Positions 18,501-56,745 of a DNA stretch of 64,000 bases are shown here, in pieces. The position numbers and the translations under genes are program-made. Each line of letters opens with the position of its first letter. Position 1 is the first letter of the stretch. Origin of the DNA: Neobacillus sp. PS2-9 (lineage in GTDB: Bacteria > Bacillota > Bacilli > Bacillales > Cytobacillaceae); contig NZ_CP133269.1 in the NCBI RefSeq assembly GCF_030915525.1, positions 1,017,001 to 1,081,000 of the forward strand, in the 5' to 3' direction. Under the pieces are notes generated by a model. It saw only the letters and a program-made list of their open reading frames with translations, was not told the origin of the DNA and made no database searches.

Positions 18501-18748
18501 GGGGGAAAAGTGTCTAGATCTATTTTAGATCGCTTTTTTCAAGGGAAAGTAAAAGTAGAGCGAGTCTAGATCGACTTTTGCTCGTTTTTTTGAAGGAAAA
18601 GTAAAAGTAGAGCGAGTCTACATCGACTTTTACAGGCTTAATCCAAGGAAAAGTAAAAGTAGAACGAGTCTACATCGACTTTTACAGGCTTAACCAAGGA
18701 AAAGTAAAAGTAAAACGTGTCAACATCGACTTTTACTTGTTTTTTTAA
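18501..18748. repeat. Tandem array A: five copies of a 52-bp unit with a hairpin
   Basis: The GTCTAGA/GTCTACA core recurs at 18512, 18564, 18616, 18668 and (degenerate) near 18719, giving steps of 52, 52, 52 and 51. A typical unit contains AGTAAAAGTAGAGCGAGTCT then ACATCGACTTTTACAGG, in which GTAAAAG pairs with CTTTTAC and TAGA with TCTA. The first copy is degenerate. The array fills the space between the terminator of the 77-residue gene and the end of the convergent alkD gene. It is not coding: a 52-base step breaks every frame. Confidence 0.9.
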
Positions 18749-18761
18749 ATTCCCATCCCAC

Positions 18762-19469
18762 TTAACAGATACAAGTCTTCCTCTTGACCCCAATTTTACC
18801 ACGCTGCTCAATCTTTTTAATATAATCGGTAGCAAGCGGTACCTTACAGGCAGTGTTTCCAACATCGACATGCACTTTACCAATAACTCCGGCAACCCGG
18901 ATCGCTTCTTCGTAAAGCTCAACAACATAAGCTCCAACACATATAACAAAATTATTCATCACATAGCGGACCCGATTTTTTTCTAAATGGATCGAAGTTT
19001 CAACCTGTTTCAAGAGCGTGCGTATTTCCTCCAGGTCCAGCTTTTCATCAGGTGTAATCGATAAATAATTAGAATATGTACTCCACCCGGCAACGGCAGT
19101 CATCTCTACTTCTGATTTCATCCATTCCTTTGCCAGTTCCATGGCGTAATTACTTTCTGCCGCCACGCTCGCCACCGTATATTCCGCGAGCATATACCAG
19201 TTGGCATTCTTCACCCACTCCTGAAGCGTTTCTTTTTCCATGAGCTTTGGATTTACAGAAAGTCCTGCTAAATACATAGCGTCATGATTACCTGTGTTGT
19301 AAAGTGCCAACGCTAATTCCTGATCCTTTTTCACGTATTTTACAAGCTTTTTTAAATCTCCGACTTTCACACCGAAGAATGCTCCCTTAGCACCATGATT
19401 CATAAATGTTTTCTTAGTTTGTTCGGACCCCAGTTCCTCGAGCTTATGCATGATTTCATCTAATTTCAT
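18762..19469 (-). CDS. DNA alkylation repair protein, AlkD family
   Basis: HEAT-like-repeat DNA glycosylase family protein (235 residues) that removes positively charged alkylated bases. Typical segments are FFGVKVGDLKKLVKYVKKD, LALALYNTGNHDAMYLAGL, WVKNANWYMLAEYTV, and RNRVRYVMNNFVICVG-like KNRVRYVMNNFVICVGAYV. It is a close fit to the short Bacillus AlkD-like proteins. The ATG is preceded by GAGGTCGC, a weak ribosome site. The enzyme specificity of this subfamily is inferred, not visible. Confidence 0.85.
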   Translation of the reverse strand: MKLDEIMHKLEELGSEQTKKTFMNHGAKGAFFGVKVGDLKKLVKYVKKDQELALALYNTGNHDAMYLAGLSVNPKLMEKETLQEWVKNANWYMLAEYTVASVAAESNYAMELAKEWMKSEVEMTAVAGWSTYSNYLSITPDEKLDLEEIRTLLKQVETSIHLEKNRVRYVMNNFVICVGAYVVELYEEAIRVAGVIGKVHVDVGNTACKVPLATDYIKKIEQRGKIGVKRKTCIC

Positions 19470-19623
19470 CTAGCGACCTCAACTTCTTGTCATTTTTCTC
19501 CATAATAACATCAATTTTAATAAATTTACTTTTCTTGAAAGGTCCAACAAGTTATTTATCATGAAATATGTTATTTTTGAAAATAGTAAGTGTACATACT
19601 TTAGTAAAAGAAAAGAGGATACG

Positions 19624-20598
19624 ATGGGAGAAATATTTCAATTATTAAAGCGTGGAAATAAGTCAGCCATGCTCGCAGCTATTATTAATTCGGTCATTTC
19701 AATTATTAAAGGTGTAGCCTTTATGTATACTGGCAATGTCGCGATGTTTGCTGAAACGATGCACAGTTTAGGGGATGCTGCCAATCAGTTCTTTGTTTTT
19801 ATCGGCTCCGCTTTAAGTAAAAAGGCACCGACAGAAAAATATCCAAATGGATTTGGCCGTTTAGTCAATCTTGTCCTTTTAGGGGCTGTCCTAATCGTTG
19901 GAATCATGGCCTTTGAAACAATAAAAGAAGGCTATCACCATGTGGTACATCCAACCGAGTCTGGTGGTTTCGCCATTAATATTATCGTGCTTGCAGTTGC
20001 AACGCTTTTGGAAACGTTTGTCCTGTTTAAGGCGATGAAGGAAATATTGCATGATATTGAGGTGGAAGCAAGCGGTCTAAGTGTGTTTGGTAAAAGCTTT
20101 GCTAATTTGAGTAGAGCGAAGCCTGCCACAAAGCTTGTATTCATGGAGGATTTGGTTGCAACGTTGGGCGGTTTGTTAGCGATAATTGCGGTTGTAATTT
20201 CTCATTACACCGATTTGCACCAACTAGAGGGAATCGCTTCTATGATCATCGGGGCGATGATGTTTTTCGTGGTGGGTAAGGTGTTTTTAGATAATGCTGC
20301 AGGTGTCATAGGACAAGCAGATGAAGAGATGGAGAATAAAATAGGAGCACTTGTTATGGCTGACCCTGATGTAAAGGATATTCAAGGGATTACGGTCATC
20401 AAAGAGGGAGAAGACCTTCACGTTGAATTGGAAATTGAAGTGGACCCGAAATTAACGGTGGCAGCTGCCGATGATATTAAGGACCGTTTAGAAGAAAAAA
20501 TCATGGCTGAAAAAGGCGTCGTGGATGTAACAATCGAGATTGATGAGGAAGATGGAGTCATGACCTGGAAGAGCAAGAGTGAATTAAATCCGGAGTAG
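19624..20598 (+). CDS. Cation diffusion facilitator transporter
   Basis: Membrane metal/proton antiporter of the CDF family (324 residues). Six helices occupy about 12-225, with metal-site residues in MFAETMHSLGDAANQF (near 45-60) and a later helix carrying MEDLVATLGG. The cytoplasmic C-terminal domain spans about 230-310. The frame is open 21 codons upstream, but the ATG of MGEIFQLL has AAAGAGGA about 5 nt before it and begins like homologues. The helix sequence APTEKYPNGFGRLVNL is typical of the YdbO-like branch. The metal (Zn, Fe, Co or Mn) cannot be decided. Confidence 0.88.
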   Translation: MGEIFQLLKRGNKSAMLAAIINSVISIIKGVAFMYTGNVAMFAETMHSLGDAANQFFVFIGSALSKKAPTEKYPNGFGRLVNLVLLGAVLIVGIMAFETIKEGYHHVVHPTESGGFAINIIVLAVATLLETFVLFKAMKEILHDIEVEASGLSVFGKSFANLSRAKPATKLVFMEDLVATLGGLLAIIAVVISHYTDLHQLEGIASMIIGAMMFFVVGKVFLDNAAGVIGQADEEMENKIGALVMADPDVKDIQGITVIKEGEDLHVELEIEVDPKLTVAAADDIKDRLEEKIMAEKGVVDVTIEIDEEDGVMTWKSKSELNPE

Positions 20599-20608
20599 GG
20601 TTCCTAAT

Positions 20609-20642
20609 AAAAAAGGTTCGCGAAAATTTCGCGAACTTTTTT
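20609..20642. terminator. Bidirectional terminator between the CDF gene and the thioesterase gene
   Basis: AAAAAAGGTTCGCGAAA and TTTCGCGAACTTTTTT form a long perfect hairpin with A and T tracts on both sides. It serves the two convergent genes and overlaps the thioesterase stop. Confidence 0.92.
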
Positions 20643-21153
20643 ATTCCCAAGGCTTCTTGGTTGTAAAAACCCCGGCCAGTTCCTTACTGCTCTTTCGATG
20701 TTCTTTCCGCTTTTCCGCCCGATCTTTCCCCGTTTCAAATAGCTTCTTCTCTTCCTCTGTCTCAGGAATAATAGAAGGGACCTTAGTTGGCTTACCATTG
20801 TCATCTAACGCAACAAACGTTAAAAAGGCGGTGGCTGCAATTTTTCTATCACCTGACATCAGATTTTCGGCGATAACTTTGACGAAAATTTCCATTGACG
20901 AGGTTCCTGTATAGGAAACAAACGTTTCAATGCAAACGGAATCCTTCGGCGTAATTGGACTGAGGAAATCAACCGAATCAATCGACGCCGTTACGCATTC
21001 AGCCCGGGAATGTCTAACCGCTGAAATCGAAGCAATCATATCAATATCACTGATTAACTTACCGCCAAATAACGTATTATGGTTGTTGACATCATTAGGG
21101 AAAATTCTACTCGTTCTTACTACTCTAGATTCATTACAAGTCTTTGCTTCCAT
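20641..21153 (-). CDS. Acyl-CoA thioesterase, hot-dog fold (YkhA type)
   Basis: Cytoplasmic acyl-CoA hydrolase of 170 residues. It has one hot-dog domain (about 10-125) with the signature FPNDVNNHNTLFGGKLISDIDMIA, in which the Asn and Asp/Glu positions build the active site, and FLTFVALDDNGKPTKVP at the end of the domain. The hydrophilic tail is rich in Lys and Glu. The ATG of MEAKTCNES is chosen because GGAG lies 8 nt upstream; the frame is open nine codons further. It is likely a hexameric broad-range thioesterase, and the physiological substrate is unknown. Confidence 0.88.
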   Translation of the reverse strand: MEAKTCNESRVVRTSRIFPNDVNNHNTLFGGKLISDIDMIASISAVRHSRAECVTASIDSVDFLSPITPKDSVCIETFVSYTGTSSMEIFVKVIAENLMSGDRKIAATAFLTFVALDDNGKPTKVPSIIPETEEEKKLFETGKDRAEKRKEHRKSSKELAGVFTTKKPWE

Positions 21154-21276
21154 TATTATCACTCCACACTTCTTTTGCACCCCTACAACATACTTAGTAG
21201 ATGGCCATGGGCATATTTTTTGTTAGTATGGCCACGATAGTAATAGATTATAAACCTTATGCCCTTCAATGTGGAA

Positions 21277-21480
21277 TTATTTGTTTACTTCAAAATCCTT
21301 GCTTACACTTTGAAATACATGTTTGGATATAATCGTGCAGTGGTCACCAAAGTTAATCGTACAGCCAACTTGTTTACTATTTGCCGTATTACTGTCTTGA
21401 ACTGTTGGCCCAACATTAATATTTGCATTATTATTGATAGAATTTACTTTGAAATAGTCGATATTTATTGAAAACGACAT
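21277..21480 (-). CDS. GerPA/GerPF-like spore protein
   Basis: A 67-residue protein resembling the GerPA/GerPF spore-coat permeability family: an N-terminal beta-prone MSFSINIDYFKVNSINNNAN, then INVGPTVQDSNTANSKQVG and a second NFGD block (CTINFGDHCTIISKHV). Gly-Asp and NxG patterns alternate as in that family. The start is uncertain among a GTG and two ATGs within nine bases; the last ATG is used. It stands alone rather than in a gerP operon. Forespore or mother-cell expression is inferred; no sigma-K or sigma-G promoter was recognised. Confidence 0.6.
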   Translation of the reverse strand: MSFSINIDYFKVNSINNNANINVGPTVQDSNTANSKQVGCTINFGDHCTIISKHVFQSVSKDFEVNK

Positions 21481-21624
21481 GCTCATCACCGTCCTATTTT
21501 TATTTTATTTTTAAAAATGAAAGATGATTGTCCTCATACCTAGAACAAGCAGTTAAATAATAAGCGAATGAAACGTAGTTGTGGTACATTACATATATCA
21601 ATATCTGGTCAGGAGGTACAATCA

Positions 21625-22446
21625 ATGGATTTACAGGCACAAATTATGAAGGATTTACATGTTACTCCGAACATTGAACCAAAAGAGGAGATTCGTAAGA
21701 GAATCGACTTTTTGAAAAATTACCTGCTACAAACCAAGGCTAAGGGATATGTACTAGGGATTAGCGGTGGTCAAGATTCCACACTCGCAGGAAGATTGGC
21801 ACAGTTGGCAGTGGAAGAATTGCGAAGTGAAGGAAAAGATGCTTTGTTTATTGCTGTTCGTCTTCCATATGGCTTGCAAAAAGATGAGGAGGATGCACAG
21901 CGTTCATTAGCCTTTATCCGTGCAGACCGTGAGCATGTTTTTAATATAAAAACAGCCGTGGACGAGGTTCAAAATGAGTATAATGCTAGCATTGATGGTG
22001 AGCCGTTACGTGATTACCATAAAGGAAATGTAAAAGCGAGAATGAGAATGATTGCCCAATATGCAATCGGTGGTATGGAGGGGCTGCTTGTTATTGGGAC
22101 CGATCATGCAGCAGAAGCAGTGACTGGTTTTTATACAAAATATGGAGACGGCGGGGCGGACATCCTGCCATTGACTGGATTAAGTAAACGCCAAGGGAAG
22201 GCCTTGCTAAAGGAACTTGGTGCAGATGAGCGTCTCTATTTAAAAGTTCCAACGGCAGACCTCCTCGATCAAAAACCTGGTCAGGCAGATGAAACGGAAT
22301 TAGGGATAACATATGATGAACTGGATGATTATCTAGAAGGAAAACCTGTCTCCAAAGAAGTGGCTGAAAAAGTGGAGAAACGATATCTCATGACGGAGCA
22401 CAAGCGTCAGATGCCCGCTACTATGTTTGACGACTGGTGGAAATAA
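21625..22446 (+). CDS. nadE: NH3-dependent NAD+ synthetase
   Basis: Last step of NAD synthesis: deamido-NAD plus ammonia and ATP gives NAD. The 273-residue protein is the short ammonia-dependent type without a glutaminase domain. The ATP-pyrophosphatase P-loop SGGQDS is at 47-52, followed by the [29 protein letters not shown] block near 155-185. AGGAGGT stands 7 nt before the chosen ATG; an upstream in-frame start lacks a ribosome site. It is a monocistronic housekeeping gene with its own terminator. Confidence 0.97.
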
Positions 22447-22449
22447 ACC

Positions 22450-22486
22450 AAAAGAGAGGCTGCATATCCGGCAGTCTCTTTTTTTT
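22450..22486 (+). terminator. Terminator after nadE
   Basis: AAGAGAGGCTGC and GGCAGTCTCTT form an imperfect stem followed by eight T residues, four bases after the nadE stop. Confidence 0.8.
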
Positions 22487-22582
22487 GTAAAATTCATAAA
22501 ACAGCTACAAGTATGACCGTCATTTGTAGTCAACTGCTTTTATAATAAAGTAAAACAAGATGTCAAAGGAGGTGTAACTGGT

Positions 22583-23419
22583 GTGAAAATAACGGAAGGG
22601 AGATTTCTAATCTTTTCGGTTTTGGCCATCGTTTTACTAATGATGATTCATGTGTTTCAAGCGCAAATTGCTGTCTTTTATAACCCCGCGAACTACGTTG
22701 GCTTTCATACGCTTTTAGAGAGCTTTAGCATCGCTGCTTCTGCAGCTATACTTTTGTATGGATTGAAAAGCTTTGAGAAGAATCAGTCCAGTCGGATGCT
22801 CCTCTTATCTTTTACATTCTTAATAGTAGGGACACTTGACCTGCTCCACACCTTATCCTTTAAAGGGATGCCTTATTTTTTTACTGAAAGCTCTGTCGCG
22901 AAAGCCACCTGGTTTTGGGTTTGTGCACGAACTTTTCAGTCATTATTCATTTTAGCTACCCTATTCATTCCTGAGCGAAAATTATCAAGGGATTACCGCC
23001 CGCTAACTTTACTAGCTGGAATAATTGTTGCACTAATGATCGGCTTCTTGATTATTTATTATGAAAAAAACTTGCCTATCCTTATGGTAGAAGGTAAAGG
23101 AACAACCCTTTTGAAAAATGGAATTGAATATGGGATTAGTTTTATTCTTTTTGTCACTTTAATTAGGACATTGTATCAATATCATCTAGAAAAAAGTGAA
23201 GCGACACTTTCGCTTGCTTTAGCATTTGTTTATTTACTGTTAACAGAGCTAGTTTTTACCATCTATCAAAGTGTATTTGATCTGGATAATTTTTTGGGCC
23301 ATATTTTTAAAACACTTGGTTTCTATTTCATCTTAAAGAGTTTTTATTTTTCAAATCGGAAGATCGCTGAAGAGGAAGAAAAGAATGAAGAAGAGCCGAA
23401 AATGAGGAGATGGATATAA
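22583..23419 (+). CDS. Stand-alone MASE3 membrane sensor domain protein
   Basis: A 278-residue integral membrane protein consisting almost only of a MASE3 domain: seven to eight helices with HVFQAQIAVFYNPANYVGFH, LVGTLDLLHTLSFKGMPYF-like IVGTLDLLHTLSFKGMPYF, and WFWVCARTFQSL. MASE3 is normally the input part of histidine kinases or diguanylate cyclases. Here the chain stops after a short acidic cytoplasmic tail (KIAEEEEKNEEEPKMRRWI) without any output domain. The GTG start has AAGGAGGTG 6 nt upstream. No fragment of a kinase or GGDEF domain follows, so it does not look like a recent truncation. Confidence 0.8.
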   Translation: MKITEGRFLIFSVLAIVLLMMIHVFQAQIAVFYNPANYVGFHTLLESFSIAASAAILLYGLKSFEKNQSSRMLLLSFTFLIVGTLDLLHTLSFKGMPYFFTESSVAKATWFWVCARTFQSLFILATLFIPERKLSRDYRPLTLLAGIIVALMIGFLIIYYEKNLPILMVEGKGTTLLKNGIEYGISFILFVTLIRTLYQYHLEKSEATLSLALAFVYLLLTELVFTIYQSVFDLDNFLGHIFKTLGFYFILKSFYFSNRKIAEEEEKNEEEPKMRRWI

Positions 23420-23597
23420 TGGCGAAAACTATCCTAATTTCCATTAACCTCATATTTGATTAACAACATATTGAAGATATAATGGGAACTGTTCTATAGA
23501 GCAAATTCAAGTAGTAATGTGATCACGACGTTTGATTACTTACTATTTTTTTTGGTGTTTTTAACATGTTAACACTTTACTAAGATAAAATTTTCTG

Positions 23598-23626
23598 TTG
23601 ACATAAATTCTGATTCATCCTATATT
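23598..23626 (+). promoter_or_regulatory. Sigma-A promoter of the amino acid antiporter gene
   Basis: TTGACA (23598-23603) and TATATT (23621-23626) are separated by exactly 17 bases, about 100 bases before the gene. The rest of the 304-base gap is AT-rich. It contains a TGTGATCAC word near 23519 that shares ATGTGATC with the arcA upstream region. Confidence 0.75.
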
Positions 23627-23723
23627 AGAAACCGTTGATTATTAATATTTATACAATGAATTGTCGACTTCAAAAATTATTGCACAATAAAAATATACAT
23701 TTCATCGGAGAGGTGTTCACAGC

Positions 23724-25145
23724 ATGGGGAAAGTAAATAAGTTAGGTTTTTGGGTGCTAACCGCACTGGTTGTTGGTAACATGGTTGGTTCGGGTATTTT
23801 TATGCTTCCACGTTCTTTATCAGAATCAGCAAGTCCTGCCGGCGTTATTGCTGCTTGGCTTGTAACTGGACTTGGTGTATTAATGACTGCGCTCGTGTTC
23901 GGAAACTTGGCGGTACGAAAACCTAAATTACAAGGCGGACCGCAAATTTATGCAAAAGACTTGTTTAAACAAGGTTCACATGCATCTACTTTATCAGGGT
24001 TTATGTCTACTTGGGGTTATTGGATCGGGAACTTAGCAGGGAACGTAGCCATGATTACTACCTTCGCTGGTTATTTATCTACCTTTTTCCCGATTTTAAC
24101 AAGCCAGGCTGACTGGTTCACTATTGGTAACTTTACACTTAAGGTGGGGAATGGTTTAACCTTTATCGTTTGTTCCGTTCTATTATGGGGTACGCATACA
24201 ATTATCCTCCGCGGGATGGAAAGTGCTGGTAAATTAAACTTTTTAGCTACTGCTGCTAAGGTTGCTGGATTTATCTTATTTATTATCGTTGGTTTGTTTG
24301 CTTTTGAAAAAAGTAATATGCTTCCATTCATGGCAGAAAGACTCGATGACGCTGGTCACTCGATTAGTATGATGAAGCAAATTAACAACGCAGCAGTTAA
24401 TACCTTATGGGCATTTATTGGTGTGGAATCAGCAGTCGTTTTTGCCTCACGTGCGAGAAAACAGACAGACGTCAAACGTGCGACAATACTTGGATTATTT
24501 ATTGCGCTTGGAATATACGTCGGAATCAGTACATTAGTGATGGGGATGTTAGACCAAAACACACTTATTCACTCGGATAAGCCATTAATTGATGCGATTT
24601 CTACTGTACTAGGACCAATTGGTGGGAAAGTGTTAGCATCAGTGGGACTAATCAGCTTATTTGGATCAACGATTGGTTGGTTAATGTTAAGTGCAGAGGT
24701 TCCGTATCAAGCAGCAAAACAGGGATTGTTCCTTCCAGCTTTCTTAAAAGAAAATAAAAAAGGCATACCAGTCTTTTCAATGATTGTTTCAAACGGTTTA
24801 GGTCAATTGTTCATTTTCTCTACGATTTCAAAATCAATCTCAGGTGCATTTGATTTTGTTATTGTCATTGCCACTTTATCGTATTTAGTTCCATACTTTA
24901 TCTCGTCTGTCTATCAACTGAAATTAGTTGTTACAGGAGATACCTATAATGGGGATAAATCCAGAATCACAGATGGAATCATCGCTCTGCTTTCAACCAT
25001 TTATTCGGTTTGGGTCATCATCGCAGGAACGGCGGATATTAAAACCTTTACCTACGGAATGATTCTTTTAGCAAGTGGAATCTTATTCTACGGACCAATG
25101 TTGAAAAAGAAAAGGGCGAATAAGGCCCAACAAAAGGCCGCATAA
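23724..25145 (+). CDS. APC-family basic amino acid antiporter (ArcD-like)
   Basis: A 473-residue, twelve-helix transporter of the basic amino acid/polyamine antiporter branch of the APC superfamily. The N-terminal signature VVGNMVGSGIFMLPRSLSES and the WGYWIGNLAGNVAMITTFAGYL stretch match arginine:ornithine and lysine-type exchangers. GGAGAGG precedes the ATG. It is monocistronic with a strong promoter and terminator. Because the arc operon of this window lacks an APC-type exchanger, this gene is a good candidate for the missing arginine:ornithine antiporter. Lysine/cadaverine or agmatine/putrescine exchange is equally possible on sequence alone. Confidence 0.85.
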   Translation: MGKVNKLGFWVLTALVVGNMVGSGIFMLPRSLSESASPAGVIAAWLVTGLGVLMTALVFGNLAVRKPKLQGGPQIYAKDLFKQGSHASTLSGFMSTWGYWIGNLAGNVAMITTFAGYLSTFFPILTSQADWFTIGNFTLKVGNGLTFIVCSVLLWGTHTIILRGMESAGKLNFLATAAKVAGFILFIIVGLFAFEKSNMLPFMAERLDDAGHSISMMKQINNAAVNTLWAFIGVESAVVFASRARKQTDVKRATILGLFIALGIYVGISTLVMGMLDQNTLIHSDKPLIDAISTVLGPIGGKVLASVGLISLFGSTIGWLMLSAEVPYQAAKQGLFLPAFLKENKKGIPVFSMIVSNGLGQLFIFSTISKSISGAFDFVIVIATLSYLVPYFISSVYQLKLVVTGDTYNGDKSRITDGIIALLSTIYSVWVIIAGTADIKTFTYGMILLASGILFYGPMLKKKRANKAQQKAA

Positions 25146-25182
25146 AAAAGCCTATCAGGGATTCTCTGATAGGTTTTTTTTT
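25145..25182 (+). terminator. Terminator after the antiporter gene
   Basis: CCTATCAG and CTGATAGG form a stem around GGATTCT, preceded by six A and followed by nine T residues. Confidence 0.88.
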
Positions 25183-25227
25183 ATTGAAAGGGGCAAAATA
25201 ATTTTGATTCCAAACAATTTATTTCTT

Positions 25228-25256
25228 TTGACAGATAGGAATGGATGTAATATGAT
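25228..25256 (+). promoter_or_regulatory. Sigma-A promoter of the cystine-type ABC operon
   Basis: TTGACA (25228-25233) and TATGAT (25251-25256) are separated by 17 bases and end 44 bases before the substrate-binding protein start. No S-box or T-box leader is visible between promoter and gene. Confidence 0.8.
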
Positions 25257-25299
25257 AATTAAATCCTATAAAAACTATCAGAATTAGGGGGTTTTAAAA

Positions 25300-26133
25300 T
25301 TGAAAAAGTTAACTGTACTATTTGCACTTTTATTAAGCTTCATGTTTGTACTATCAGCATGTGGTAAAGACGAGAATGCTGATAAAGATAAAAAGGATTC
25401 AGATAAAAAGACAGCTGAAAAAGCTGATGGGGACTTATTGAAAAAAATAAAAGCTGATGGAACGATTACTATTGGTACTGAGGGTACATATCCACCATTT
25501 ACCTTTCATGATACAAGTGGAAACTTAACTGGATTTGATGTGGAGCTTGCACAAGAAGTCGCTAAGCGTCTGGGTGTTAAGGCTGAATTCAAAGAAACAC
25601 AGTGGGATGCGATGTTCGCCGGACTGGATGCCAAGCGTTTTGATATGATTGCAAACCAGGTAGGAATTCGTCCTGACCGTCAGGAAAAGTATGATTTCTC
25701 TGATCCGTACATTACGTCATCTGCTGTATTAATTGTAAGCAAGGACAATGATAAGGTAAAAGCCTTTGAAGACATTAAAGGATTAAACTCTGCCCAGTCC
25801 TTGACAAGTAACTATGCAGATATGGCGAAAAAACTGGGAGCTAATATCGTTGGTGTAGAAGGCTTCCAACAAGCGGTTGAACTGCTTGCTCAAAAACGTG
25901 TCGATGTAACTATCAATGATAAACTAACATTCTTAGACTTTAAAAAGAGTAAGCCAGATGCACCGGTTAAGGTCGCTGCTACTAGTGATGATGCTTCAAC
26001 TAGCGGATTTATGTTTAGAAAGAAAAGCGGCTCGCTTGTGGATGAAGTGAATAAGGCATTAAAAGATATCGTCGATGATGGTACGTATAAAAAAATCTCA
26101 GAGAAATGGTTTGGTGAAGATGTACTTAAATAG
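25300..26133 (+). CDS. tcyA: Amino acid (probably cystine) ABC transporter lipoprotein
   Basis: Extracytoplasmic substrate-binding lipoprotein of the polar amino acid family (277 residues). The signal peptide ends in a lipobox [11 protein letters not shown] with the lipidated Cys near 21, followed by a Lys/Asp-rich spacer. The binding fold has [25 protein letters not shown] and [24 protein letters not shown]. It resembles TcyA-type cystine binders, but glutamine or histidine binders are similar, so the substrate is tentative. The TTG start follows AGGGGG by 8 nt. It is the first gene of a three-gene operon and overlaps the permease gene. Confidence 0.8.
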
Positions 26134-26851: not shown

Positions 26852-27586
26852 ATGATTTCAATTAATGGTCTATATAAACAGTTCGGTCAATTAGAAGTGT
26901 TAAAGGGAATTGACCTTGAGGTGGAGAAGGGAAAAGTGGTGGTTGTCATCGGGCCGTCCGGTTCCGGAAAGACGACTATGCTTCGCTGCTTGAATGTGCT
27001 GGAAACTCCTACAAAAGGTATTATTTCCATCGAAGGTCAGAGTCTTGATTTTTCAAAAGCAGTTGCGAAAAAAAATATTTCTACGTTCCGGCGATTAACC
27101 GGAATGGTGTTTCAAAATTATAATCTTTTCCCACATAAAACGGCCCTTGAGAACGTGATGGAAGGACCAGTGGTGGTAAAGGGTGAAAGTAAAGAGGCTG
27201 CTCGAAAAAAAGCCCTGTCACTATTAGAGAAGGTAGGACTTGGGGATAAGGTGGACTATTACCCTGCACAGCTTTCAGGCGGCCAGCAGCAGCGTGTTGG
27301 GATTGCCAGGGCGCTTGCAATGGAGCCTGAGGTGATGCTGTTTGATGAACCGACATCGGCGCTTGACCCTGAGCTTGTCGGTGAAGTTTTAAAAGTTATG
27401 AAGGATCTTGCCGCAGAAGGCATGACGATGATTGTAGTCACCCACGAAATGCGCTTTGCCCGTGAAGCGGCGGATGAGGTCATTTTTATGGACCAAGGTG
27501 TAGTGGTCGAAAGAGACAAGCCAGAGGTCATCTTCACCCAGCCAAAAGAAGAACGAACCAGGAAGTTTTTGAATATGATTCAGTAA
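26852..27586 (+). CDS. tcyC: Amino acid ABC transporter ATPase
   Basis: Cytoplasmic ATP-binding subunit (244 residues) of the polar amino acid importer. Walker A GPSGSGKT is at about 34-41, the Q-loop in [11 protein letters not shown], the signature LSGGQQQR near 137, Walker [14 protein letters not shown] near 157, and the switch histidine in VVTHEMRFA. It begins 33 bases after the permease with AAAAGGGAG upstream, and a good terminator follows. With the two preceding genes it makes a complete importer. Confidence 0.88.
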
Positions 27587-27622
27587 GGTGCTGTAGCTCG
27601 GGGAGCTATGGCACTTTTTTGT
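27587..27622 (+). terminator. Terminator after tcyC
   Basis: GTGCTGTAGCTC and GAGCTATGGCAC form a 12-bp stem with one or two wobble pairs around GGG, followed by TTTTTT. Array B begins about 28 bases later. Confidence 0.88.
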
Positions 27623-27647
27623 TGTTGATATTTCTAGTATTTGGAAA

Positions 27648-27755
27648 AATAGCCATTACCCTTTGAAAATGAGCCAATCTCCCACAAAAATGAGCCAATC
27701 CACCCAAAATATAAGCCAATGTTTCCCAAAAATGAGCCAATCGCAAAATTGGCAG
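27648..27755. repeat. Tandem array B: five copies of a 21-bp unit (core GAGCCAAT)
   Basis: The core GAGCCAAT (with variants TAGCCATT and AAGCCAAT) starts at 27650, 27671, 27692, 27713 and 27734, exactly 21 bases apart. Between cores the sequence varies around CCCA and AAAA. The array sits between the tcyC terminator and the sigma-W promoter of yuaF. On the plus strand one frame is open through all five copies (repeat MSQSxxK, ATG at 27669, stop at 27756), but no ribosome site precedes it, so I do not call a gene. Confidence 0.9.
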
Positions 27756-38257: not shown

Positions 38258-38920
38258 ATGTCGAAGCTCTTGTATATTACGGCTAATCCGAAAAACGATA
38301 TAAAGCTTTCAAAAGGAATGCAGATTGGGGAAGTATTTTTAGAGGAGTTTAAAAAGGAACAGCCGGATGTTGAAATTGAACATATGCACTTATATAGCAT
38401 GGATATCCCCCAGATTGACATGGATTTACTATATGCACGTGCAAAATTATCCTTTATGGGATATACAAAAGATCAGCTTACAGAAGAAGAGCTGACAAAA
38501 ATCGAAAAAATGCATGCACTTGCTGAGCGATTTATTGATGCGGACTACTATGTTTTTGTTACTCCAATATGGAATCTGGGTGCACCGGCCATTTTAAAAT
38601 CCTTTATGGATTGTTTATTTATTGCAGGAAAAACGTTTAAATACTCTGAGCATGGTGCAGAGGGTCTTCTTACGGGAAGAAAGGCTATTCACATTCAAAC
38701 ACGTGGAGGCATTTATTCAAGTGGCCGGATGGTGGATTTTGAAATGGGCGACCGTTATTTAAGCAAAGCCCTTGAATTCCTTGGCTTTGAATTGATGGAA
38801 ACCGTTTTTGCAGAAGGAATGGATCATTTTCCAAAAATAGTCCCGGAAATTATGGCAAAAGCGAAAGCACAGGCTGCGGAGGCTGCTCGAGAAATGGCAA
38901 AACAGACTGAAACAGTATAA
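38258..38920 (+). CDS. azoR: FMN-dependent NADH-azoreductase
   Basis: Flavodoxin-fold quinone/azo reductase of 220 residues. The N-terminal LLYITANPKNDIKLSKGMQIGEVFLEEF and the FMN loop TPIWNLGAPAILKSFMDCLFIAGKTFKYSEHG are characteristic, followed by HIQTRGGIYSSG. The start is the ATG of MSKLLY with GGAAGGG 6 nt upstream; upstream in-frame starts overlap that site. It is monocistronic with a strong terminator. Such enzymes detoxify quinones, and B. subtilis AzoR1/AzoR2 are regulated by thiol and quinone stress. The regulation is not visible here. Confidence 0.9.
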   Translation: MSKLLYITANPKNDIKLSKGMQIGEVFLEEFKKEQPDVEIEHMHLYSMDIPQIDMDLLYARAKLSFMGYTKDQLTEEELTKIEKMHALAERFIDADYYVFVTPIWNLGAPAILKSFMDCLFIAGKTFKYSEHGAEGLLTGRKAIHIQTRGGIYSSGRMVDFEMGDRYLSKALEFLGFELMETVFAEGMDHFPKIVPEIMAKAKAQAAEAAREMAKQTETV

Positions 38921-38958
38921 AAAAAGGCAGTTCGAGTCATCTCGAACTGCCTTTTTTT
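38918..38958 (+). terminator. Terminator after the azoreductase gene
   Basis: AAAAAAAGGCAGTTCGAG and CTCGAACTGCCTTTTTTT pair perfectly around TCAT. Array C begins about 15 bases later. Confidence 0.93.
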
Positions 38959-38970
38959 GAGTTTAATCTA

Positions 38971-39078
38971 TTCTATTTGCGATAAAAGGTGGTTTATTTG
39001 CGATAATCCACCTTTTATTTGCGATAATCCATGTTTTATTTGCGAAAACAGACCTTTTATTTGCGAAACCGCTCCACC
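38971..39078. repeat. Tandem array C: five copies of a 21-bp unit (core TTTATTTGCGA)
   Basis: The core TATTTGCGA starts at 38974, 38995, 39016, 39037 and 39058, exactly 21 bases apart. Each core is followed by about ten variable bases. The array lies between the azoreductase terminator and the end of the convergent uppP gene. On the minus strand one frame stays open through the array (repeat FANKxxx), but it begins inside uppP in another frame and has no ribosome site, so it is not called a gene. Confidence 0.92.
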
Positions 39079-48623: not shown

Positions 48624-48669
48624 AAATAATAACAAAGCTCATTCAGAAATATTTTTTTTGACTAAAAAA

Positions 48670-48687
48670 TGAATGAGTATTCATTCA
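48670..48687. promoter_or_regulatory. FadR operator of the fadNAE operon
   Basis: TGAATGAGTATTCATTCA is an 18-bp near-perfect palindrome identical to the B. subtilis FadR (YsiA) consensus TGAATGANTANTCATTCA. It lies 23 bases before the fadN start. Long-chain acyl-CoA should release FadR and derepress beta-oxidation. Confidence 0.92.
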
Positions 48688-48709
48688 AAGTTTGAAGGGG
48701 GAGACAGTG

Positions 48710-51094: not shown

Positions 51095-51141
51095 TAATAG
51101 ATTTTTATTTTTCTAATTCGATAGAAAGCGAGGGAACTTGC

Positions 51142-52317
51142 ATGAGAGAAGCGGTAATCGTGGCAGGAGCCAGAACCCCGGTAGGTAAGGCAAAGAAAGG
51201 AACGCTTGCCCATGTTCGTCCTGATGATTTGGGAGCATTGGTGGTAAAAGAAACATTAAGACGTGCAGGAAACTATGAAGGAAATATTGATGATTTAATC
51301 ATTGGCTGTGCTATGCCTGAAGCAGAACAAGGGAATAACATGGCTCGTAATATCGGTGCACTTGCAGGGCTTTCACATACGGTCCCTGCTATCACAATCA
51401 ATCGCTTCTGTTCTTCGGGGCTACAAGCGGTTGCCTATGCAGCACAAGGAATTATGACAGGGCAAATTGACACAGCTATTGCAGGTGGAGCCGAATCAAT
51501 GAGCATGATTCCCATGATGGGACATGTGGTTCGGCCGAATATTAAACTAGCCGAAACGGCACCGCAATATTACATGGGAATGGGCCATACAGCAGAAGAA
51601 GTAGCAAAGAAATATGGCATCAGCCGTGAAGACCAAGATGCTTTTGCGGTAAGAAGTCATCAGCGGGCAGCCAAAGCGATTGCAGAAGGAAAATTTGTCG
51701 ATGAAATCGTACCAGTTGATGTGACCATTCGTACTGTTGGACATGACAATAAACTAGTTGAAAAAACAATCCAATTTTCACAAGATGAGGGCGTTCGTCC
51801 AGATACAAACTTAGAAACATTAGGTAAACTTCGTCCTGCCTTTTCTGTTACAGGAACGGTAACGGCAGGTAATGCGTCGCAAACAAGTGACGGAGCAGCT
51901 GCATTGATGGTCATGGACCGTGAAAAAGCGGAAGCACTTGGTTTGAAGCCACTAGCAAAATTCAGATCGTTTGCAGTTGGAGGCGTGCCACCTGAAATTA
52001 TGGGTGTCGGCCCAGTGGTAGCTATTCCAAAAGCAGTGAAGCTAGCTGGATTAGAATTATCCGATATTAACTTGTTTGAATTGAATGAAGCGTTTGCTTC
52101 ACAGTCGCTTCAGGTAATTAGAGAATTAGGTCTTAACGAAGAAATTGTGAACGTAAATGGTGGTGCGATTGCCCTTGGACACCCACTAGGATGTACGGGT
52201 GCAAAACTAACACTCTCACTTATTCATGAATTAAAACGCAGGAACGAGCAATTCGGTGTAGTTACCATGTGTATCGGCGGCGGTATGGGTGCTGCCGGAG
52301 TATTTGAACTTTTGTAA
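51142..52317 (+). CDS. fadA: Acetyl-CoA C-acyltransferase (3-ketoacyl-CoA thiolase)
   Basis: Degradative thiolase of 391 residues that cleaves 3-ketoacyl-CoA with CoA. The nucleophile Cys90 lies in [14 protein letters not shown], the catalytic His in [16 protein letters not shown] near 349, and the second Cys in [13 protein letters not shown] near 379. AGCGAGGG stands before the ATG. It lies 47 bases after fadN and 64 bases before fadE. The order equals yusL-yusK-yusJ of B. subtilis. Confidence 0.96.
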
Positions 52318-52381
52318 TCAAGACGCACCAGGGGTAAGCGGGACTTAGCCCCTGGCTAATTAAAGTCTAGGAGGAATAGAG

Positions 52382-54166
52382 ATGGCAAATCAAACAGAAA
52401 AGATTATTAAAGGCGGAAGCTTTTTAATTGAGGATGTTTCTTATAATCAAGTATTTACACCGGAAGATTTTTCAGATGAGCACAAAATGATTGCTAAAAC
52501 AGCAGAAGACTTTGTGGAAAACAAAGTACTACCACAAATTGAACACTTAGAAAACCATGAGTTTGATCGTACGGTAAAGCTTCTAAAGGAAATGGGGGAG
52601 CTTGGTCTTTTAGCAGCTGACGTACCAGAAGAATTTGATGGTCTAGGTCTAGATAAAATTACTTCTTCATTAATTACTGAAAAAATGTCTAGGGCTGGCG
52701 GATTCTCACTTTCTTATGGTGCCCACGTTGGTATTGGGTCCTTGCCAATTGTATTATTCGGTAACGATGACCAAAAGGGCAGATATTTACCTGGCCTTGC
52801 ATCAGGTGAAATGCTGGCTGCCTACGCATTAACTGAGCCAGGATCAGGTTCTGATGCCCTTGGTGCTAAAACAACAGCGAAGCTTAATGCTGAAGGCACA
52901 CACTATATCTTAAACGGTGAAAAACAATGGATTACAAACGCAGGCTTTGCAGATGTATTCGTCGTGTATGCAAAGGTGGATGGTGAACACTTCACTGCAT
53001 TCATCGTTGAAAGAAACTTCCCAGGCGTTTCAACTGGCGCTGAAGAGAAGAAAATGGGGATCAAGAGTTCTTCCACTCGTACTCTTATTTTAGAAGATGT
53101 TCCTGTACCAGTTGAAAACCTATTAGGTGATTTTGGTAAGGGCCACGTCATTGCCTTTAATATCTTAAATATCGGCCGCTATAAATTAGCTGTTGGCGGT
53201 GTAGGCGGATCGAAGAGTGCCTTTGAAATGACTGTAAAGTATGCAAATGGCCGTAAGCAGTTTAAAACGCCAATCGCTCAGTTCAACTTAACAAAAGAGA
53301 AATTTGGTACAATGGCATCCAAAATTTATGCAGCAGAAAGTGCTGTTTACCGTACAATCGGATTATATGAGGATAACCAAGGTAAGCTGACCGATGAGGA
53401 AGCGAAAGACATTAAAAAGGTGGCCAATTCAATTGCAGAGTATGCGATTGAGTGTTCATTAAACAAATTTTTTAACAGTGAAGTGTTAGATTATGTCGTT
53501 GATGAAGGCGTTCAAATTCATGGCGGATATGGTTTCATGCAAGAGTACCCAATCGAGAGAGCATACCGTGATTCTCGTATTAACCGCATTTTCGAAGGTA
53601 CAAACGAAATCAACCGTTTGTTAGTATTAGGCACGTATCTGCGTAAAGCTATGAAGGGTGAGCTTCCATTATTCCAAAAAGCAATGGCACTTCAAGAAGA
53701 ACTTATGATGCTTATGCCTGAGGAGCCAGGTGATGAGCCGTTAGCACAAGAAAAATATTTGGTGAAAAATGCGAAGAAAATTGGTTTGCTTGCAGCTGGT
53801 TTAGCCGCACAAAAATACGGCAAGGCGATTGAAAAAGAACAAGAAATATTCGTAAACATTGCTGATATTGTTTCTAATGCGTATGCTATGGAATCTGTCG
53901 TATTACGTACAGAAAAAGCAATCGCTAAAGATGGAGTGGAGAAGAGCAAACAAAAGCTTCTTTACACACAAATTTTCTGCCAAGAAGCATTTAATAAAAT
54001 CGAAGCAGATGCGAAAGAAACATTGGTGGCCGTTGAACACGGTGATACTCTTCGCATGATGTTATCATCTCTTCGCAAGTTTACTCGCCACACGCCAATT
54101 AACGTGATTGCGAAAAAGCGTGAAGCAGCAGACGCGCTTATCGAAGCAGAACGCTATATCGTTTAA
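52382..54166 (+). CDS. fadE: Acyl-CoA dehydrogenase
   Basis: FAD-dependent acyl-CoA dehydrogenase of 594 residues, the long form with an additional C-terminal domain (about 430-594) resembling very-long-chain enzymes. Blocks include YALTEPGSGSDA near 155, LNGEKQWITNAGFADVFVVYA, and the catalytic region VDEGVQIHGGYGFMQEYPIERAYRDSRINRIFEGTNEINR. AGGAGGAAT lies before the ATG. It is the last gene of the operon and is followed by a short terminator. The electron acceptor would be an ETF encoded elsewhere. Confidence 0.95.
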   Translation: MANQTEKIIKGGSFLIEDVSYNQVFTPEDFSDEHKMIAKTAEDFVENKVLPQIEHLENHEFDRTVKLLKEMGELGLLAADVPEEFDGLGLDKITSSLITEKMSRAGGFSLSYGAHVGIGSLPIVLFGNDDQKGRYLPGLASGEMLAAYALTEPGSGSDALGAKTTAKLNAEGTHYILNGEKQWITNAGFADVFVVYAKVDGEHFTAFIVERNFPGVSTGAEEKKMGIKSSSTRTLILEDVPVPVENLLGDFGKGHVIAFNILNIGRYKLAVGGVGGSKSAFEMTVKYANGRKQFKTPIAQFNLTKEKFGTMASKIYAAESAVYRTIGLYEDNQGKLTDEEAKDIKKVANSIAEYAIECSLNKFFNSEVLDYVVDEGVQIHGGYGFMQEYPIERAYRDSRINRIFEGTNEINRLLVLGTYLRKAMKGELPLFQKAMALQEELMMLMPEEPGDEPLAQEKYLVKNAKKIGLLAAGLAAQKYGKAIEKEQEIFVNIADIVSNAYAMESVVLRTEKAIAKDGVEKSKQKLLYTQIFCQEAFNKIEADAKETLVAVEHGDTLRMMLSSLRKFTRHTPINVIAKKREAADALIEAERYIV

Positions 54167-54178
54167 AATGAAATCAGG

Positions 54179-54212
54179 GCTCCCTTTTTCTCAAGGGGGC
54201 TATTTATTTTTT
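54179..54212 (+). terminator. Terminator of the fadNAE operon
   Basis: GCTCCCTT and AAGGGGGC pair (one G-U) around TTTCTC, followed by TATTTATTTTTT. Confidence 0.7.
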
Positions 54213-54366
54213 AAAATTATATTTAGATAAAGAAGGAGTATTTACGAAATTAGTCGAATTTTTATTTGGAACATATTTTTTGCATTAGGATTTTGAAAAA
54301 CGTTATGATAATATTCAAATGACGTGATTATGTCATTGAATGAAGTGGGAAAAGGCGGTGAAACTT

Positions 54367-54723
54367 ATGTCGATGACTTTTTACTGGTATCCAAAATGCG
54401 GCACATGTCGAAACGCTAAGAAATGGCTGGATGCCCATCAACTTTCCTATGAAGAAGTACATATTGTGGAACATCCCCCAAGTCGTGAGAAACTGCAGGA
54501 TCTTTATCAAAAAAGCGGACTAGAACTTAAAAAATTCTTTAATACGAGCGGTATGAAGTATCGTGAATTAGGTATAAAGGATAAGATGAAGTCAGCAACG
54601 GACGAAGAGCTGCTAGACCTACTTGCTTCCGATGGGATGTTAATCAAACGGCCGATTTTAACGGATGGCGAACGAGTCACCGTAGGCTTTAAAGAAGAAG
54701 AGTATGAAAAAATGTGGCAATAA
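54367..54723 (+). CDS. yusI: ArsC/Spx-family protein YusI
   Basis: Thioredoxin-fold protein of the ArsC/Spx/YffB family (118 residues) with CGTC at residues 11-14 (YWYPKCGTCRNAKKWL), and the ArsC-like RPILTDGERVTVGFKEEEYEKMW C-terminus. It is a close match to B. subtilis YusI, whose activity is not established. The start at MSMTFYW is chosen because AGGCGGTG lies 6 nt upstream. It stands between fadE and gcvH as in B. subtilis. Arsenate reductase activity should not be assumed. Confidence 0.85.
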   Translation: MSMTFYWYPKCGTCRNAKKWLDAHQLSYEEVHIVEHPPSREKLQDLYQKSGLELKKFFNTSGMKYRELGIKDKMKSATDEELLDLLASDGMLIKRPILTDGERVTVGFKEEEYEKMWQ

Positions 54724-54806
54724 GCCTGCTCTTCCTTTCCTGACTCATGGTAATCGATTTTATTCGATGATAGATTTTAGAAAAAACAATGGAGGGATTT
54801 AAGCGA

Positions 54807-55190
54807 ATGAGTACACCAAAAGAGTTACGTTATTCAGAAGAACATGAATGGGTAAAAGTTGAAGGGGAAAAGGTGCGCGTTGGTATCACTGACTTTGCAC
54901 AGCATGAATTAGGAGATATCGTATTCGTAGAACTACCTGAAGTTGGTACTGAAGTATCAGCTGACGAGCCATTCGGAAGCGTTGAATCTGTTAAAACAGT
55001 TTCTGAGCTATATGCTCCTGTAAGCGGAAAAGTGGTAGAAGTAAACGAAGACTTAAATGACAGTCCTGAATTTGTAAATGAATCTCCATATGAAAAAGCA
55101 TGGATGATTGTCATCGAACTTTCTGACAGCAGCGAAGTAGATAAGCTAATGACTGCTGAACAGTACGAAGAAATGGTTAAAGAAGACTAA
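54807..55190 (+). CDS. gcvH: Glycine cleavage system H protein
   Basis: Lipoyl carrier protein of 127 residues. The lipoylated Lys63 lies in [16 protein letters not shown]. Other conserved parts are [28 protein letters not shown] and [13 protein letters not shown]. In Bacillus GcvH is also the relay for lipoic acid to other enzymes, which explains its position away from gcvT-gcvP. The ATG of MSTPKEL is used with GGAGGG upstream; the frame is open six codons earlier. Confidence 0.97.
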
Positions 55191-55203
55191 TCATCATCAT
55201 TAG

Positions 55204-55229
55204 AAAAGCACCTTTTAGGGTGCTTTTTC
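55204..55229 (+). terminator. Terminator after gcvH
   Basis: AAAAGCACC and GGGTGCTTTTT pair around TTTTA. Confidence 0.88.
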
Positions 55230-55329
55230 TGTTAATAATATAGGGGTTCCTCTTTTTTATAATAATTTCCACGATTTCTTCTACTAAAGTGGGGAAACTA
55301 AACGTAAATATATTAAAGAGGGTGGACAT

Positions 55330-55569
55330 ATGTCATTGAAACAACAAAAGGTAGACGTTACTGATCGTGTAGTAGGGAAAATTAAAAATGGTGAGATTGA
55401 ACTGTTCTTAGAATCATCCTCTATCGGAAAAATTAAACTACCTGAAAATATGCAGTATGACCTAGAGCATCACTTTGAGGCTGACCAACAAAAGATATAC
55501 CAGCATGTTACGGTTACCGATCAACCTGATGCGAAATATACCGATTGTGATGAAGGTGGATGGTGTTAA
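55330..55569 (+). CDS. yusG: YusG family small protein (DUF2553)
   Basis: A 79-residue hydrophilic protein (MSLKQQKVDVTDRVVGKIKN at the start) with two C-terminal cysteines (YTDCDEGGWC). It matches the YusG/DUF2553 family, found next to gcvH in Bacillus. The function is unknown. AGAGGGTGG precedes the ATG. The following 147-base gap holds a single word GAGCAAATAC (55597), also seen at the edge of array D, and two GTTAACATA repeats. Confidence 0.8.
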   Translation: MSLKQQKVDVTDRVVGKIKNGEIELFLESSSIGKIKLPENMQYDLEHHFEADQQKIYQHVTVTDQPDAKYTDCDEGGWC

Positions 55570-55716
55570 CTCCTACGTTGTAGCCGTCGTGAGTATGAGC
55601 AAATACCTATTTTTAAGATGACAATAATGATATAGTTAACATACTAAGAAGAAGACACACGTAATCAAAATTTTAGAATATGTTAACATAAACAACTTCT
55701 ATTACAGGTGATGGAT

Positions 55717-56073
55717 ATGAATGATTCGTATGTTGACAAAGTTCTTATTGTCGAAGGAAAGTCAGATAAAAATAAGGTAAAAAGTATTGTAAAGGAACCG
55801 GTTGAAATCATTTGTACGAATGGAACCATCAGTGTTTCGAGACTCGATGAATTAATCGAGTTTCTTGAGGATAAGGATGTCTATATTCTTGTTGATGCAG
55901 ATAAAGCAGGTGAAAAGCTTCGTAAGCAATTTAAGCGGGAATTTCCACATGCTGAGCATATATATATTGATCGGATGTATCGCGAGGTCGCAACGGCACC
56001 AGTACAGCATTTGGCGACTGTGCTTTTAGGGGCGAACATCGATGTGCATACTGAGTTTTTAGAAATGGGATAA
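55717..56073 (+). CDS. yusF: Toprim-domain protein YusF
   Basis: A 118-residue single Toprim domain protein. The glutamate motif VLIVEGKSDKNKVK lies near 8-21 and the DxD motif YILVDADKAGEKLRKQF near 70-85. It resembles the small primase-like Toprim proteins (RNase M5-like) and equals YusF in gene order. Several starts are possible (GTG 55708, ATG 55711, ATG 55717); the last has AGGTG 6 nt upstream. Nucleic-acid processing is a family expectation, not shown. Confidence 0.85.
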   Translation: MNDSYVDKVLIVEGKSDKNKVKSIVKEPVEIICTNGTISVSRLDELIEFLEDKDVYILVDADKAGEKLRKQFKREFPHAEHIYIDRMYREVATAPVQHLATVLLGANIDVHTEFLEMG

Positions 56074-56079
56074 CGAAAA

Positions 56080-56385
56080 ATGAACGAATGGAACCAAAAT
56101 GATTTTGTTGATTTCCTTGAAAATAAGTCAACAGGACTAATCTATTTTTATACACCACTTTGTGGTACGTGCCAGCTCGCTTCCAAGATGCTGCAGGTGG
56201 TCGAAGAGTTGGTAGATAGGCCAATGGGAAAAATGAACTTAAATTTTTATCCACAATTGGCGAAGGATTTAGCGATTGAAAGTGTACCCTGTCTGTTAAT
56301 CGTGAGAGACGGAAAGGTAGTAGAAATGCTGTATGCATTTCATTCTGTTCCGTTTTTGTTGGATAAAATTAAGAGTTATATTTAG
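56080..56385 (+). CDS. yusE: Thioredoxin-like protein YusE
   Basis: A 101-residue thioredoxin-fold protein with the redox motif CGTC at 28-31 (FYTPLCGTCQLASKML) and the cis-Pro in ESVPCLLIVRDG near 70-80. It corresponds to B. subtilis YusE. It begins six bases after yusF, so both are in one operon. A terminator and then array D follow. Confidence 0.88.
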   Translation: MNEWNQNDFVDFLENKSTGLIYFYTPLCGTCQLASKMLQVVEELVDRPMGKMNLNFYPQLAKDLAIESVPCLLIVRDGKVVEMLYAFHSVPFLLDKIKSYI

Positions 56386-56388
56386 TGG

Positions 56389-56417
56389 AGCAGATACCTC
56401 GGGGTGTCTGCTTTTTA
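56389..56417 (+). terminator. Terminator after yusE
   Basis: GCAGATACC and GGGTGTCTGC pair around TCG, followed by TTTTTA. Array D starts about 20 bases later. Confidence 0.85.
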
Positions 56418-56433
56418 CTTCCGATATGGGGAA

Positions 56434-56745
56434 TGTGAGCAAATACATTGGGACTCTACAGCCTCATAGAACCCAAATGAGCAAGTATCGGGATTGTGAA
56501 AGGGTCACAAATCCCGTAGCCTTTAAAAAGACCAAGTATGGGAATTGTGAAGGGCTCACAAATCCCGTAGACTCCTAAAAAGAGCGAGTATGGGAATTGT
56601 GAAGGGCTCACAAATCCCGTAGACTCCTAAAAAGAGCGAGTATGGGAATTGTGAAGGGCTCACAAATCCTGTAGCCTCTAAAAAGAGCGAGTATGGGAAT
56701 TGTGAAAGGTTCACAAATCCCGATGTCCCCGAAAAAGAGGAAAGA
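56434..56745. repeat. Tandem array D: five copies of a 51-52-bp unit with hairpin, plus one degenerate copy
   Basis: The TATGGGAATTGTGA-type core starts at 56486, 56537, 56589, 56641 and 56692 (steps 51, 52, 52, 51). Each copy holds GGGAATTGTGAAGGGCTCAC then AAATCCCG, which folds into a stem with TGTGA and TCACA arms. Most copies begin AAAAAGAGCGAGTATGGG. A degenerate copy starts at 56437 (GAGCAAATAC), 42 bases before the matching word GAGCAAGTAT. The array fills the 421-base gap between yusE and the convergent NERD gene. Confidence 0.92.

Follow-up and report, generated by a model that had tools for sequence, protein, structure and literature searches.

What reads the short tandem arrays dispersed along the chromosome of Neobacillus sp. 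PS2-9? The question is raised by a window of 64,000 nucleotides (C1:1017001-1081000 of the 5.19-Mb single-contig genome), which holds four intergenic arrays, A to D, each with its own word and a period close to two or five turns of the DNA helix. Comparison within this genome and across the genus indicates that the readers are probably NERD proteins, one of which is encoded next to array D, and that the arrays are their predicted binding platforms.

Two classes of array in the window

An earlier note on this DNA had placed four arrays here, and all of them were present (plus strand). Arrays B (27646..27750, word AATGAGCCAAT) and C (38971..39069, word TTTATTTGCGA) belong to class 1, in which direct words of 11-13 bp follow one another at a step of 20-21 bp, or two turns, across variable spacers. 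Arrays A (18501..18745) and D (56434..56735) belong to class 2, where a palindrome of about 27 bp and a linker recur every five turns; the unit of D consists of the palindrome GGGAATTGTGA-AGGGC-TCACAAATCCC and a 25-bp linker. Tandem Repeats Finder returned a period of 52 for A (18540-18736, 3.8 copies) and D (56475-56722, 4.8 copies), and of 21 for B (27666-27742, 3.7 copies) and C (38993-39066, 3.5 copies, or alternatively period 42 with 2.2 copies). This agrees with the 21 bp reported earlier for B and C and narrows the 51-52 bp reported for A and D to 52, while the five copies claimed for each array require a visual count that includes degenerate units at the ends. A word said to be common to A and D, AGAGCGAGT, does occur in both, but at the hairpin centre in A and in the linker in D, so the sharing is probably a coincidence.

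Arrays accompany NERD genes

The gene beside array D (56807..57742, minus strand) encodes a NERD-domain protein of 311 amino acids (PF08378, E 1e-17). All 14 NERD loci of the PS2-9 genome exceed the PF08378 cut-off, five of their proteins scoring 65.1, 77.2, 57.8, 71.6 and 60.6 bits against a threshold of 22.1. An array lies within 1 kb of the gene at 11 of these 14 loci, compared with 53 of 378 background genes of 750-1200 bp from the same genome (Fisher p 2.5e-7). The word differs at each of the 11 linked arrays: the class-1 words are TTTATTTGCGA, TATTCGCGAAT, TGACGAGTAAA, TTGGCGGAAT and AATGAGCCAAT, and the class-2 words GGGAATTGTGA, ATGAAGGACA, GGTAACGTAGA, TGTCCGAAT, TTTCTAATGCCC and GGTCGCATAGA.

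Every one of these 11 words was also found in orphan arrays, which have no adjoining NERD gene, ten of them within a sampled 32% of the genome and AATGAGCCAAT by a pattern search of the genome. Arrays B and C are such orphans and so have NERD partners elsewhere, their words recurring beside NERD genes at C1:203.9 kb (locus L362) and C1:1431.6 kb (L353), respectively. The partner of D is adjacent, and D-type orphan arrays are similar, not identical, to array D. Array A, also without an adjoining NERD gene, belongs to a family like the NERD-linked array at L415 of the sister genome G027 (C1:1035541-1035734 versus L415:1658-1852, 70% identity, E 1.8e-16). Families were assigned by hand-typed word patterns, which left 7 arrays unassigned and filed the TTGGCGGAA orphan array at 1300962, bearing the L360 word, under GCGGAAT. 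Two broken NERD genes of the same genome (C1:4673261-4674153 and 5020738-5021672), with split frames and in one case a stop, still have class-2 arrays next to them.

We extended the comparison to 171 NERD loci of the genus (168 distinct proteins), selected on search rank or on contig quality, irrespective of neighbouring arrays; 16 of the last 18 came from G049, G029 and G054, picked because their gap behind UppP holds an array. The distance cut was 1500 bp, and L365 (654 amino acids, no match with the reference NERDs) was excluded. Subfamily 1 was accompanied by 49-53-bp arrays at 68 of 74 distinct proteins and by class 1 at none, subfamily 2 by 20-22- or 40-43-bp arrays at 78 of 94 and by class 2 at none. 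Among the first 153 loci, 77 of the 78 class-2 arrays within the distance cut were located 3' of the gene. At 9 of 33 clade-1 loci with both flanking arrays, the 5' and 3' words differ (L354, L368, L379, L385, L459, L460, L478, L481, L495). Of 61 genomes of the genus, 22 contain TTTATTTGCGA arrays, and a NERD of the corresponding clade (E <= 1e-90) is found in 19 of these 22 versus 19 of the remaining 39.

Long NERDs of six other genera had 21-bp arrays in four cases. In a contrast set of the 30 best-scoring NERDs from a search for relatives around a different genus, which come mostly from other genera and do not form a matched control, arrays were detected at four. These contrast NERDs are mostly shorter (28 of 30 under 300 amino acids) and their array frequency is not above background, whereas the array-linked members supplement the family domain with a zinc ribbon and with an end at the C terminus that tracks the word. 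At L531, in a genome from a different family of the same order (G093), 21-bp arrays with TTCTTGAA words extend in long runs upstream of the NERD gene.

The word covaries with the C-terminal end of the protein

Similarity between class-1 words tracked the identity of the linked proteins (rho 0.52, 75 loci, 0/1000 permutations). The 45 clade-1 NERDs examined pair with ATTCGC-NN-ATAAA, in which NN is variable. Among 34 subfamily-2 proteins with one clear NN each, the four of 277 columns covarying most strongly with NN were 283, 287, 294 and 291, a clustering matched in 0/5000 permutations. Columns 283, 287 and 291 correspond to residues 294, 298 and 302 of protein P0122 (offset 11), on helix 294-303 of its AlphaFold2 model (pLDDT 93.8), and column 294 to residue 305, two residues past this helix. 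When the second variable base is A, column 283 holds I or V (11/11 with a residue, one gap); when it is C, R (6/6); when it is G, one of H, S, P, Q, E or D (16/16). An A as first variable base goes with G at column 287 (7/7). These correspondences suggest a residue-to-base recognition code in compact nuclease-like proteins, with residue 283 as the putative determinant of the second variable base.

For class 2, a 27-bp frame was imposed on 66 NERD-linked arrays, 45 of which showed good symmetry; a simple arm search gave a palindrome of exactly 27 bp in 12 of 35 arrays and of 29 bp in 7 of 35. Within the symmetric arrays, G occupies position -12 in 43/45, T and/or G position -11 in 42/45 and A position -5 in 33/45. 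In subfamily 1 the palindrome covaries with residues 304-308, which lie between two short strands of the C-terminal end (45 loci; 0/5000). Close pairs of proteins (N-part identity of at least 80%) separate the two ends: the word correlates with the C-terminal part at rho 0.86 versus 0.17 for the N-part in class 2 (15 pairs), and at 0.67 versus 0.30 in class 1 (71 pairs).

Protein end and array differ jointly between sister genomes

At one NERD locus compared between PS2-9 and G027, the flank is 97% identical and the N-terminal part of the protein 89%, against 53% for the C-terminal part; the array families differ as well, that of G027 being the one resembling array A. Arrays B and C show whole-unit differences between the two genomes, and array A is represented in G027 by a single remnant unit. 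For the D cassette, at the one site compared in G027, the left flank aligns up to window position 56395 and then diverges, with no clean empty site.

The orthologous gap behind UppP contains arrays in 9 of 30 species loci, with different words. In 4 of 8 cases (G000, G027, G059, G049), among the NERDs compared, the orphan word of this gap matches a clade-1 NERD that the genome itself encodes. In G021, a 21-bp and a 52-bp array stand next to each other in this gap (L294).

Two-turn and five-turn periods across the genome

Pairs of words were sought in the PS2-9 genome with patterns permitting distances of 14-44 bases. Pairs of the AATGAGCCAAT type (8/8 matches, at 6 places) and pairs of TTTATTTGCGA (11/11 matches) were spaced only by 21 or 42, and the reversed-pattern controls for both gave 0 matches. 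Of 37 exact copies of TTTATTTGCG in this genome, 27 fall within 6 arrays. The same type of pair pattern (distances 14-44) retrieved 80 records with TTTATTTGCGA, many from Neobacillus; among the matches listed, successive words lay 20 (62), 21 (64) or 39-42 (111) bases apart, with 9 at other distances. The 10-bp spacers of class 1 differ, which indicates that the word and the step are preserved and the whole unit is not. In an array at about 731 kb of C1 (L026), class-1 words drift at the downstream end toward TTATCCACA, which we take to be the DnaA box.

A period scan requiring three in-phase 11-mers (periods 12-70) was run on the window and 80 further stretches, 1.664 Mb in all (32% of the genome); three of the 81 pieces (L239-L241) had been selected for known arrays, and the scan was strict enough to overlook array B. 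It returned 85 arrays, with periods of 21 (30), 20 (7), 52 (33), 51 (2), 41-42 (5) and 18, 33, 39 or 60 (8), so that 72 stand at 20, 21, 51 or 52 and 13 at all other periods; one Markov-shuffled control gave 0. The earlier note had asked whether periods of 21 and 52 bp are preferred across the genome, and the peaks at 20-21 and 51-52 answer that they are. Together with the TTTATTTGCGA distances in the 80 records, the scan establishes the two-turn and five-turn periods as real, and the observation of helically periodic arrays holds genome-wide. A third repeat type with a 39-bp period was seen at L206:8097-8188, L211:6829-6920 and L527:3647-3835; the repeats of L206 and L211 carry GGGGGACAGTCCCC-like palindromes.

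A nuclease fold with a predicted DNA-reading end

The protein beside array D displays the residues of a PD-(D/E)XK nuclease fold (D84, E97 and K99), a zinc ribbon (C227, C230, C244 and C247) and C-terminal helices with a wing-like end. The catalytic positions are preserved among NERD proteins (D 155/156, E/D 155/156, K 156/156). The array-linked NERD proteins combine a zinc ribbon and a winged-helix-like C-terminal end with a nuclease fold that retains its catalytic residues, and they are predicted to cleave.

Searching the PDB by sequence gave 0 matches for the D protein. Foldseek returned a single match at E <= 0.001 for the first NERD model, an R2 retrotransposon protein (3.4e-4), and none for the second. 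The proteins were assigned to no defence system: for two of three, PADLOC returned weak matches (MkoA, PglW, PDC-M03B, Cas10a; best E 2.8e-4), and the NCBIfam match, to MADS6, was weak as well (17.8 bits versus 460).

A model of array reading, and its alternatives

In the model that we propose, each NERD protein would read one DNA word, and its copies would align along one face of the helix, possibly in a cooperative manner. Proteins of subfamily 2 would bind head-to-tail at two-turn intervals on direct words, and those of subfamily 1 as symmetric pairs on palindromes every five turns. The PS2-9 genome would contain 11 such protein-word pairs, each with a linked array by the gene and same-word orphans elsewhere. 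An exchange of the reading end would entail one of the linked array, in whichever direction the swap runs, and could leave old arrays behind as relics. One part of the earlier reading survives in this model, that of a single phenomenon in which helical-turn periods and array-specific words place a motif on one helix face for a protein; it is divided here into two related classes, and the general nucleoid protein put forward as partner gives way to NERD nuclease-fold proteins, which the evidence favours.

Several observations weigh against this model. No array was detected at 22 of the 168 distinct NERD proteins, although a targeted look found short array remnants at 4 of these 22 (L376, L377, L382, L384), and two of the six long NERDs of other genera have none either. 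Conversely, 3 of the 22 genomes with TTTATTTGCGA arrays (G005, G039, G046) lack a NERD of the corresponding clade, the word in the UppP gap has no matching clade-1 NERD in G021, G029, G054 and G057, where part of the NERDs were compared, and within PS2-9 the GTGTAGAAA and TACTGTCG families and that of array A lack a linked NERD, while the TATCAGCGAA family stands near one only through its TATCGGCGAA variant. When all class-1 pairs are taken, the partial correlations (0.25 for the C-terminal part given the N-part, 0.28 for the reverse) do not single out the C-terminal part. The covariation statistics also ignore phylogeny apart from the comparison among columns, and the loci counted have a common ancestry and cannot be treated as independent. 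Finally, binding and cleavage by NERD proteins are predicted from sequence, and a nuclease with dozens of sites on its own chromosome must somehow be restrained.

Among the alternatives, the one that survives best, although we consider it unlikely, is that the arrays are sites serving the host. They would then shape the nucleoid, insulate convergent transcription or act as backup terminators, and the NERD proteins would be binders that the host has domesticated. Noncoding position was found for 35 of 42 arrays with periods of 20, 21, 41 or 42 and for 33 of 35 with 51 or 52. Simple in-house gene calls allowed 66 arrays to be placed: 20 lie in convergent gaps, which make up 12% of intergenic bases, 6 in divergent gaps (23% of intergenic bases) and 40 in tandem gaps. 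The preference for convergent gaps is real, but it is not the rule; the convergent placement claimed earlier applies to A, C and D in the window, B lying between tandem genes. A terminator-like hairpin also precedes each window array on the plus strand, at 27585..27617 for B and 38918..38959 for C (listed on both strands) by a hairpin scan, and at 18437..18477 for A and 56386..56417 for D, which were read by eye and are absent from the scan list. The terminator described before each array is present in that sense, with a gap of about 11-30 bases by eye instead of the 15-30 given. The convergent excess, these hairpins and the preservation of word and spacing amid varying spacers would all suit host sites, which fit poorly with the turnover of words, orientation and class between species at one orthologous gap, with the varying number of NERD genes, some bearing internal stops, and with the 40 arrays between tandem genes. 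The post-terminator position, examined for the four window arrays, may be a tolerated placement.

It is improbable that NERD genes merely hitch-hike by inserting in or beside arrays that another factor reads. Such insertion would account for L369, L464 and L390, where arrays sharing spacers flank the gene on both sides as though it had been placed inside an array (identity 0.91-0.98, against at most 0.84 in 18 control pairs; 25 loci compared), but it would not lead one to expect the split of periods between subfamilies without crossover in 168 proteins, the covariation of the word with C-terminal reading-end residues, or the joint difference of reading end and array between sister genomes.

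A function as transcribed repeats or small RNAs, an alternative raised by Subirana and Messeguer, appears very improbable. The 52-nucleotide repeats of B. coagulans are transcribed, according to the Discussion of their article (PMC8161180), and class-2 units are inverted repeats; yet class-1 words hold the helical step of 20-21 despite variable spacers, and specificity maps to the predicted DNA-reading end. In the four pieces searched, no array matched Rfam at the gathering score, the sole matches being SAM and c-di-GMP-I riboswitches, and array A gave nothing but snoR03 (E 0.32) in an evalue-mode scan. Lastly, mutational satellites, amplified by slippage with a period reflecting a replication or repair step, would explain the whole-unit differences of A, B and C between sister genomes but leave unexplained both the 11-bp words preserved amid variable 10-bp spacers and the dispersed, NERD-linked word families, and can hardly be credited.

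What the NERD-array pairs do beyond binding is judged by analogy. They could quite plausibly be self-maintaining nuclease-repeat elements, with a logic like that of the RAYT-REP system described below, although we hold this tentatively; a host function in insulation or the nucleoid is less probable, and a role in defence or self-marking is doubtful. On balance, we favour the view that they form an undescribed, widespread, genome-resident class, in which NERD families would read their own word by a winged-helix code, keep or spread phased arrays, evolve by exchange of reading end and array, and leave relics.

Relation to known systems

The arrays themselves were described in 2021, contrary to the earlier statement that no described system fits. 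In the accessible part of their article, Subirana and Messeguer (PMC8161180) report Bacillus tandem repeats of constant size, 20-21 or 52 nucleotides, and variable sequence; their counts across 176 Bacillus genomes are 781 arrays for 20-21 and 1886 for 51-53. In their account 20-21 nucleotides equal two helix turns, and the repeats might carry one or more proteins polymerising along them, stabilise the nucleoid or act through small RNAs, while evidence for a Cas-like protein is stated to be lacking; the words NERD, nuclease, terminator and convergent are absent from the accessible text. As far as that text goes, we consider these repeats to be the same elements, with both sizes in common, a sequence that varies, multiple families in a genome, short shared words and partial strain conservation; the PS2-9 arrays agree in size (72 of 85), in their mostly noncoding position (35/42 and 33/35) and in comprising several families. 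Beyond that description lie the NERD linkage, the correspondence of subfamily and period, the covariation of the reading helix, the paired domain-array differences and the palindrome or direct-word anatomy. Novelty rests in the protein-array pairing, which was not found in print by a search mostly outside the subscription literature: the accessible part of PMC6749651 mentions neither '52 nt' nor NERD nor nuclease, and of nine papers that contain TTTATTTGCGA, none has a title on bacterial repeats. The 20-21/52-nucleotide repeats have been called enigmatic, without a named protein partner, and NERD proteins are listed as little beyond 'nuclease-related' or 'hypothetical'. The pairing supplies a candidate partner and lets both puzzles be tested as a single system, for which this one genome offers 11 protein-word pairs. 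It also suggests a mode of evolution where readers change in step with the sites scattered around the chromosome.

Two other repeat systems were rejected. The TAACTGA repeats of MacGregor (PMC4679880), in the accessible text, are 7-mers found mostly just upstream of start codons, unlike the arrays. A CRISPR-like array does not fit either: class-2 units are near identical throughout, class-1 words are degenerate, and identical repeats do not alternate with unique spacers.

The RAYT (REP-associated tyrosine transposase) is paired with REP palindromes. The NERD-array pairs resemble this system in having a gene beside its own repeat with dispersed orphan copies (all 11 words), intergenic palindromes and a suspected selfish origin. 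They differ in the protein, of the NERD PD-(D/E)XK type, in the abundance of paralogs within a genome, whose words differ, in the helical phasing of the arrays and in the existence of a direct-repeat class. In the 5 of 14 PS2-9 NERD-locus proteins scanned, no Pfam family besides NERD, hence no transposase family, exceeded its cut-off, and the Y1/HUH tyrosine transposase of RAYT-REP loci was not found. In RepA iterons and ParR-parC partition sites, in-phase direct repeats of about 20-22 bp are bound by a DNA-binding protein. The arrays share with them the in-phase direct repeats, the spacing of about 20-22 bp and a putative protein reader, but are chromosomal, dispersed in dozens and paired with a candidate binder of nuclease fold.

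In the window itself, two SAM riboswitches (Rfam RF00162) lie 1.5 kb apart on the plus strand, at 58372-58474 and 59992-60099.

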